DNA of 60,525 nt from positions 1-60,525 of the forward strand of contig DATLYY010000005.1 of assembly GCA_035574275.1 (NCBI GenBank). The letters run 5' to 3'. This document shows positions 32,731-60,525 of the stretch, piece after piece (positions within the stretch are counted from its first letter, which is position 1; each line of letters opens with the position of its first letter). The notes beneath the pieces were generated by a model, which was given only the letters and a program-made list of their open reading frames with translations, was not told the origin of the DNA and did not search any database. Origin of the DNA: Verrucomicrobiia bacterium (GTDB taxonomy: Bacteria > Zixibacteria > MSB-5A5 > DSPP01). The position numbers were made by a program, and so were the translations under genes.

Positions 32731-32803
32731 TAGCCCCACGGGGAGTCGAACCCCGGTTTGATGGCTGAGAACCACCCGTCCTGGGCCACTAGACGATGGG
32801 GCC
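32731..32803 (-). tRNA. tRNA-Glu (CTC)
   Basis: Read on the minus strand from 32803, the acceptor GGCCCCA pairs with TGGGGCT, ending in discriminator A73. The D-arm GTCTAGTGGCCCAGGAC is as in E. coli tRNA-Glu. The anticodon stem-loop GGTGG-TTCTCAG-CCATC has anticodon CTC. The T-arm is CGGGG-TTCGACT-CCCCG. G1-U72 is a wobble pair, as in other tRNA-Glu genes. CCA is not encoded; a T-rich run follows. Confidence 0.95.
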
Positions 32804-32873: not shown

Positions 32874-32908
32874 CCCTCTCCATTTATGGAGAGGGTTAGG
32901 GTGAGGTT
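32874..32908. repeat. CCCTCTCC hairpin repeat with AGGGTGAGG tail
   Basis: CCCTCTCC (32874-32881), a six-base loop and GGAGAGGG (32888-32895) form a stem of 8 bp, followed by TTAGGGTGAGGTT. The same hairpin and tail recur at 59912. This is a known kind of dispersed intergenic palindrome in many genomes. It lies 46 bases before the IscS start. Confidence 0.8.
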
Positions 32909-59404: not shown

Positions 59405-59899
59405 ATGCCGACTGTCTATCTAATCTCCGATACCCACGTCCCGGAACGCCGGGAGGAAATTCCCAGGGAATTTCTCTCCCAATTGAAGGAAGAGGACATC
59501 GTCCTCCACGCCGGCGACTGGACTTCCGGCAACACCCTCAAGCTCCTCCAGCAAAAAGCCAAGGTTTTCGGTGTCTGGGGGAATATGGACGACGGCGCCA
59601 TCCGCAAGGAACTGCCGGAAAAGACGATTGTGGAGATTCAGGGATTCAAAATCGGCATCACCCACGGCTTTGGCGCGCCGGAGGGGATGGTGGAGAAGGT
59701 GCAGTCAAAATTCCCTGAAAAAGTGGATATGATTCTCTTCGGCCACACCCACGTCCCCCATAGCGAAGAAAAGGACGGTATCCTCTTCTACAACCCCGGC
59801 TCCCTTTCCTTCAACAACGACCGCCGGGAGTTGACTTATGCAATATTAGAAATTAAAGACAACGAATTGGCTCCTCGGCTGGTTTCTCTAAACATATAG
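59405..59899 (+). CDS. YfcE/MJ0936-type metallophosphoesterase
   Basis: 164 residues. Metal ligands typical of the calcineurin-like family: Asp9 and His11 (SDTH), Asp38 (HAGDW), Asn60 (GN), His87 (THG), His114 and His116 (GHTHVPH). It hydrolyses phosphodiesters such as bis-pNPP in vitro; the natural substrate is unknown. The last 26 codons have a diverged second copy at 59953, and the tail here is AT-richer than the rest of the gene. Confidence 0.92.
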   Translation: MPTVYLISDTHVPERREEIPREFLSQLKEEDIVLHAGDWTSGNTLKLLQQKAKVFGVWGNMDDGAIRKELPEKTIVEIQGFKIGITHGFGAPEGMVEKVQSKFPEKVDMILFGHTHVPHSEEKDGILFYNPGSLSFNNDRRELTYAILEIKDNELAPRLVSLNI

Positions 59900-59911
59900 C
59901 TTTTTTTACTT

Positions 59912-59950
59912 CCCTCTCCTTACGAAGGAGAGGGATTGAGGGTGAGGTTT
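59912..59950. repeat. CCCTCTCC hairpin repeat, second copy
   Basis: CCCTCTCC (59912-59919) and GGAGAGGG (59927-59934), then ATTGAGGGTGAGGTTT. The stem and tail match the copy at 32874; the loop differs. It sits between the two phosphoesterase tails. Confidence 0.8.
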
Positions 59951-59952
59951 CC

Positions 59953-60034
59953 CGACCGCCGGGAATTGACCTACGCCATTTTGGAAATCAAAGACAACGA
60001 ACTCGCCCCCCGGCTGATAACCCTCGATTTGTAA
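59953..60034 (+). pseudogene. Diverged duplicate of the phosphoesterase C-terminus
   Basis: Codons D-R-R-E-L-T-Y-A-I-L-E-I-K-D-N-E-L-A-P-R-L are identical in protein to the gene tail from residue 139, but at least ten codons differ silently. It ends I-T-L-D-L-stop instead of V-S-L-N-I-stop. Alignment is gap-free with an offset of 135 bases. It has no gene body, so it is a relict. Confidence 0.85.
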
Positions 60035-60041
60035 TCTGTAG

Positions 60042-60062
60042 GGGCGAACCTTGTGTTCGCCC
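60042..60062. repeat. Palindromic repeat, compensated variant
   Basis: GGGCGAA (60042-60048), loop CCTTGTG, TTCGCCC (60056-60062). Compared with the copies at 46461 and 54602, both arms have changed but still pair. A T-run follows. Confidence 0.8.
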
Positions 60063-60071
60063 TGTTTTTTT

Positions 60072-60107
60072 GTCCCCCTTACCAAGGGGGACGAGACCCG
60101 AAGGGTC
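60072..60107. repeat. Repeat hairpins GTCCCCCTT/AAGGGGGAC and GACCC/GGGTC
   Basis: GTCCCCCTT (60072-60080) and AAGGGGGAC (60084-60092) form a 9-bp stem with a 3-base loop, followed by GACCC/GGGTC (60095-60107). Similar CCCCCTT palindromes are dispersed in many genomes. Confidence 0.75.
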
Positions 60108-60218: not shown

Positions 60219-60386
60219 ATGAAGCGATTGCTTCTGATACTCGCGTTCACAGCGCTACCTACTATTCTTTTTGCCCAAAGCAGCTATTTGAACATCCTCG
60301 CTCTCATTCGGGGTGATAGTTTGGGCGCAGAATTCGGTAAAAAAGTAGTTCCGGCTGGAGATGTAAACAACGATGGAATGCCTGAT
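60219..60386 (+). pseudogene. FG-GAP repeat exported protein, 5' fragment cut by IS
   Basis: ATG 60219 starts a signal peptide (RLLLILAFTALPTILFAQ), then an FG-GAP-like repeat start (GDSLGAEFGKKVVPAGDVNNDGMPD). At about 60387 the frame enters an IS end and stops at 60404. FG-GAP proteins are beta-propeller surface proteins; only 56 codons remain here. Confidence 0.8.
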
Positions 60387-60525
60387 TGTACTGCTCCCCT
60401 TTAGTCAAGCGGCCTGATATGGAGTCATCGGGCTGAGGTTATAGGTTTTCTCGAACCTGTTCGGCGGCTGGTAGCCCAGGGCCGAGTGCAGGTAGGTTTC
60501 GTTGTACGTTTCGATCCAGCCGTTC
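60387..60525 (-). mobile_element. IS3-family element, terminal part
   Basis: TGTACTGCTCCCC at 60387 resembles the terminal inverted repeat of IS3 elements, and the transposase end follows on the minus strand. The element continues beyond the window. The other end and any target duplication are not visible. Confidence 0.8.
60405..60525 (-). CDS. IS3-family transposase OrfB, C-terminal end (partial)
   Basis: The minus-strand frame reads N-G-W-I-E-T-Y-N-E-T-Y-L-H-S-A-L-G-Y, then ends Q-A-A-stop at 60405. NGWIETYNETYLHSALGYQP is the end of the DDE integrase core of IS3-type OrfB. Only 39 codons lie in the window. Confidence 0.9.
   Translation of the reverse strand, partial: NGWIETYNETYLHSALGYQPPNRFEKTYNLSPMTPYQAA

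Follow-up and report, generated by a model that had tools for sequence, protein, structure and literature searches.

The window, 60,525 nucleotides in length, covers contig 5 from end to end in a draft Zixibacteria genome that is 99.9% complete (79 contigs, 2.51 Mb). Close to its right end lies an open frame of 164 aa, the product of which matches PF12850 at E = 7.3e-36 and scores 111.4 bits with TIGR00040 (yfcE; curated cut-off 56.25), assigning the gene to the YfcE-type calcineurin-like phosphoesterases. The frame ends in a stretch that we call tail 1 (GAC...TAG), and the last 26 codons of the gene together with the stop are repeated 135 bases downstream as tail 2 (GAC...TAA). Tail 2 carries all of its codons and its TAA stop, has no start and is preceded by no front part of a phosphoesterase gene. 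For comparison we used Candidatus Zixiibacteriota bacterium PMV_8.32 (hereafter PMV_8.32), the sole relative of the same genus among the genomes searched and the sole empty site. From 12.8 kb onward the window is broadly collinear with one contig of PMV_8.32 (18 blocks, 72-95% DNA identity), the final block stopping at 59881, within tail 1. The features of the locus are listed in Table 1.

Table 1. Features at the 3' end of the phosphoesterase gene (positions in the window).
Feature	Position	Strand	Basis
YfcE-type calcineurin-like phosphoesterase gene, now a putative chimera of native body and incoming tail 1	59405-59899	+	Open frame; PF12850; TIGR00040; body compared with PMV_8.32
Putative inserted unit of 135 bases (tail 1, stop and hairpin repeat)	59818-59952	+	Copy spacing of 135; absent from PMV_8.32
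12-base word CGACCGCCGGGA common to both tails, probable left crossover zone	59818-59829	+	No longer exact word is common to 59405-59905 and 59931-60034
Tail 1: in-frame gene end closed by TAG, diverged and putatively incoming	59819-59899	+	More differences from PMV_8.32 than tail 2; GC3
Dispersed palindromic repeat, stem CCCTCTCC...GGAGAGGG, 3' end ...GAGGGTGAGGT	59904-59949	+	Own-genome search with 59893-59956
Second copy of the 12-base word; predicted right junction with native sequence	59953-59964	+	Direct repeat, shared word
Tail 2: displaced native gene end by comparison, codons intact, TAA stop, no start	59954-60034	+	Comparison with PMV_8.32
Native downstream sequence by comparison: palindrome with GTAG head and T-run (60041-60063, terminator-like), followed by a GTCCCCCTTACCAAGGGGGAC palindrome	60038-60101	+	Order in PMV_8.32; terminator scan

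Tails 1 and 2 are identical at 60 of 81 bases (21 differences), and comparison of their 27 codons, stop included, revealed 12 silent differences and four residue changes, leaving 22 of 26 residues identical, 21 of them consecutively. The pair is the longest direct repeat returned by the repeat search (64 nt, 83%, spacing 135). When the sequences on either side of the hairpin were aligned locally, they scored 73, whereas the best of 30 shuffles reached 21, and a protein search of the whole genome matched tail 2 at E = 1e-7, indicating that the duplication is far beyond chance. An earlier sequence-only reading had claimed that the end of the gene recurs at this spacing, with 21 identical residues and at least ten silent codon differences, and these claims hold, coordinates included. 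Its view that the tails diverged as parts of working genes agrees with the dominance of silent changes, and the repeat hairpin that it placed between the tails is indeed there.

The hairpin (fold z = -3.0) spans from about 5 bases past the TAG stop to 3-4 bases short of the second copy. A 64-base query taken across it gave 31 matches in the genome (E up to 10, its own place and a reverse-strand echo counted), the nearest other copy being 87% identical, and Rfam gave no match at this place. A strict pattern for the stem subfamily found 18 copies in 437 kb of this genome, the given one counted, and 3 in 370 kb of PMV_8.32, a density that is not representative since the sampled 437 kb were drawn from hairpin-rich contigs. 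The flanks of 32 copies in the same 437 kb were long enough to be compared (those of one further copy were too short). Nine copies had flanks more alike than shuffles, and eight of these were judged by eye, untranslated, to be other dispersed non-coding repeats; with one copy in 32 accompanied by a gene tail, we rejected the idea that the repeat generally goes along with duplicated tails. Elsewhere in the window a hairpin repeat at 32874 lies beside a tRNA gene (32731-32803, minus strand) situated in a 130-base stretch 95% identical to PMV_8.32; the next collinear block in that relative begins 4 kb away, so there may have been an insertion near this tRNA gene. Many copies of the CCC(C)TCTCC type lie within about 800 bases of contig ends (at the first bases of contigs 3, 7, 25, 30, 44, 45 and 48 of this genome), and given these positions the assembly was probably interrupted by the repeats or by sequence next to them.

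The hairpin between the tails lacks a GTAG head, and no hairpin copies were found within about 700 bases of the two Y1 transposase genes of this genome. RAYT genes carry GTAG-type palindromes on both sides. One of the Y1 genes (PF01797; contig 55, locus L086, 11522-11848) is flanked on both sides by such palindromes (GTAGGGG... / ...CCCCTAC), and the GTAG palindrome after tail 2 is of the type that flanks it. In the portions of the literature available to us, nothing related to palindromic repeats of Zixibacteria was found. Further to the right, the stretch 60219-60525 holds an ORF of 61 aa with a signal-peptide-like start that stops at 60404. On the minus strand, the product of 60408-60524 weakly resembles the integrase core rve_3 (E = 3e-4, short of the cut-off) and, judged by this match, looks like a piece of a transposase, presumably IS3-type, cutting the 61-aa ORF.

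To determine which of the two tails is native, we compared both with PMV_8.32. The single copy of the gene in this relative runs straight into a tail-2-like end, with the 135-base unit absent; its peptide ends in ...ITLDL, as does that of tail 2, whereas tail 1 ends in ...VSLNI. Over the 81 bases, tail 1 differs from PMV_8.32 at 24 positions and tail 2 at 13. Tail 1 alone departs from PMV_8.32 at 14 sites and tail 2 alone at three (sign test, p = 0.013; hand count with the codon table). The same order of elements, a GTAG-headed palindrome followed by the GTCCCCCTTACCAAGGGGGAC palindrome, stands after the gene of PMV_8.32, and a search for the composite pattern of both palindromes gave a single hit in the 437 kb sampled from this genome and a single hit in the 370 kb sampled from PMV_8.32, each of them after this gene. 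The terminator scan placed its terminator-like hairpin after tail 2 and reported none between the tails. Since tail 2 is the closer to PMV_8.32 and is followed by the downstream elements in the order of that relative, orphan tail 2 with its downstream sequence is the native end of the gene, so that the in-frame tail 1 with its stop and the hairpin would be a 135-base insertion. The search suggested by the sequence-only reading, for a full homologue with the second type of tail, thus found one in the same genus and in a matching setting, and refines that reading in that the orphan second tail is native and the in-frame first tail the newcomer.

The body of the gene supports this polarity. It differs from PMV_8.32 at 67 of 414 bases, against 24 of 81 in tail 1 (Fisher p = 0.007), and the 30-base blocks at gene positions 360 to 419 are identical to PMV_8.32 at 26/30 and 27/30, indicating that the resident body stands at orthologue distance right up to the 12-base word and tail 1 does not. 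The excess divergence of tail 1 is modest. Gene ends commonly diverge further than the bodies they belong to, and in a gene-by-gene comparison with PMV_8.32 two other tails in the window exceed tail 1 in silent divergence (16/21 and 14/19 codons, versus 13/20 in tail 1). GC3 is 12/27 in tail 1 versus 0.74 in the gene body; values as low occur in 41 of 303 gene tails, and a drop as large below the own body in 7 of 303. We therefore do not argue a foreign origin from composition; the case for it lies mainly in the order of elements and the paired comparison, which point to tail 1 as the incomer. Some states are common to both tails against PMV_8.32, so the donor may be a near relative.

Searches for a donor and for further copies covered several sets. 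In this genome, the protein search gave the gene and tail 2 only, with no second full copy. Among 132 genomes of the phylum, in which the genus is represented by two genomes, no donor of tail 1 was found, with three weak matches of 19-34 bases outside its own genome. A scan of genome contigs for a donor returned PMV_8.32 and seven distant relatives; a 16-base word common to tail 1 and locus L084 was dismissed as a chance match inside other sequence. A tail-duplication scan of the sampled 437 kb of this genome, which took in 1343 stop-to-stop frames of at least 120 aa on either strand and counted nested frames, placed 13 frames above the best reversed control (47), the phosphoesterase gene among them. 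The other 12, of which the one at L072 was read, look like within-gene repeats or antisense frames and were set aside. The same scan of PMV_8.32 placed 5 of 991 frames above the best control (47).

We consider it probable that DNA carrying a diverged gene end and a hairpin repeat joined the chromosome by an additive, homology-anchored recombination. The incoming piece would have come from a diverged relative and brought the end of the same gene along with the repeat. On the left, a homologous crossover with the resident gene would have taken place at or near the first copy of the 12-base word, thereby keeping the gene in frame and giving it a new ending; the native body is fused in frame to tail 1 at this shared word. 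At the right-hand joint, the repeat would have been linked by its end to the resident gene, again at the 12-base word and without clear homology, leaving no need for any loss of sequence and displacing the resident ending downstream as a headless tail. Copies of the repeat end in GAGGT(T) and the native sequence restarts 3-4 bases beyond, which places the right joint where a repeat copy ends, or very close to that point. Either homology-facilitated illegitimate recombination or one crossover involving a small circular molecule could have produced this layout. The data show the two tails, their order, that tail 2 is native and that the genome has no second full copy, from which we infer the donor, the exact place of crossover and the nature of the right joint. 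The displacement looks recent, given that the headless tail 2 has kept every codon and its stop, and the 12 silent differences, being old, suggest that the newcomer diverged elsewhere. In view of the residue identity between the tails, enzyme function is probably unaffected by the swap. Of three routes to this arrangement, the others being integration of an element and deletion between paralogues, additive recombination takes the fewest steps and is the likeliest cause.

The duplication could alternatively be the relic of an integrative element that used the 3' end of the gene as its attachment site and restored it with its own diverged copy, in the manner of e14 in icd, the inside having since been lost to leave attL (body, core, tail 1), the hairpin and attR (core, tail 2). 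The geometry is that of attL and attR around a 12-base core (59818 and 59953), with the new tail in frame and the native tail on the far side, and the piece duplicated by e14 in icd is of a like kind (165 bp, 12 exchanges; PMC11148124, as far as the available part of that source goes). However, the 123 bases between the words are tail 1 and the hairpin alone, with no integrase gene or element body; the spacer from the TAG stop to the second copy measures just 53 bases, too few for an integrase relic, and is occupied by a dispersed repeat of this genome. Nor did the viral contigs searched carry this tail: no relative and no exact 29-mer of tail 1 was found among them. The relic would thus require loss of a whole element and a host-dispersed repeat in its place, and we regard it as unlikely.

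An artefact of assembly, in which strain variants or a chimeric read were joined, had been raised by the sequence-only reading. The genome is a draft, the contig ends 491 bases beyond tail 2 in transposase-like sequence, and dispersed hairpins lie near many contig ends. Against a false join, the tails share at most 12 consecutive bases, and words from 59801-60010 recur in the sampled 437 kb at lengths of no more than 16 bases, too short for the usual k-mers; usual assemblers require longer words. The divergence of even the closest other hairpin copy also argues against it, and a join would require a molecule in which the hairpin already abutted tail 2, all of which makes an artefact distinctly unlikely.

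Recombination between paralogues or strains had also been proposed. That recombination joined the tails stands; the paralogues fare less well. Two full copies head to tail with the hairpin between them, from which a deletion running from the end of the hairpin to the 12-base word took the front of the second copy, would fit the order gene, repeat, tail and a silent divergence built up during long separate function, yet each of the 18 other genomes that matched in a protein search of 58 (PMV_8.32 included; 39 had no match) holds exactly one match, and a body at orthologue distance beside a tail that is not means that this route also needs conversion of the body, so we hold it to be quite improbable. 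A further reading, very improbable indeed, takes the 135-base unit as a minimal mobile cassette, in which the hairpin would move together with a prefabricated gene end, insert at a matching word in the gene and restore the gene as a prophage does, with no other cargo.

Together, the data suggest that DNA exchange has left a small scar here, one more case of a known type: a readable trace, in an uncultured phylum, of a single event of additive recombination, with its polarity told from one relative. If hairpin repeats are preferred right-hand joints, such scars would be informative on how these repeats spread. Like the REP palindromes associated with RAYT transposases (PMC3733652), the repeats are short hairpins dispersed downstream of genes in a genome that has Y1 transposase genes. 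Unlike GTAG-type REPs, the hairpin between the tails has no GTAG head and was not found beside the Y1 genes, the GTAG-headed element being the one after tail 2.

The event may be compared with three known systems, each as described in the available parts of its source. At rhs loci, displacement of C-terminal tips has been proposed, with a circular intermediate (PMC2935791). In both cases a new end becomes fused to the gene in frame, and the old one moves to a silent place downstream with no loss. The rhs tips are non-homologous, their exchange is mediated by a conserved core and arrays form, whereas here the ends are homologous and encode a nearly identical peptide, 12 bases are shared and there is a single event. 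For the ends of type VI secretion (T6SS) effectors of Vibrio cholerae, displacement by homology-facilitated illegitimate recombination has been proposed (PMC5361080), likewise with a homologous 5' anchor and a displaced 3' end retained downstream, and with an illegitimate 3' joint of the kind that we propose here. The V. cholerae modules come with immunity genes and are probably under selection, in contrast to the 135 bases seen here, which bring no cargo. Gene-end displacement, proposed for toxin loci, can thus also affect an ordinary enzyme gene, here probably in a neutral way. Finally, as with the e14 prophage in Escherichia coli icd (PMC11148124), the end of a gene is partially duplicated with mainly silent exchanges, and the copy fused to the body reads in frame and works; a prophage lies between the copies in icd, and here a hairpin repeat only.
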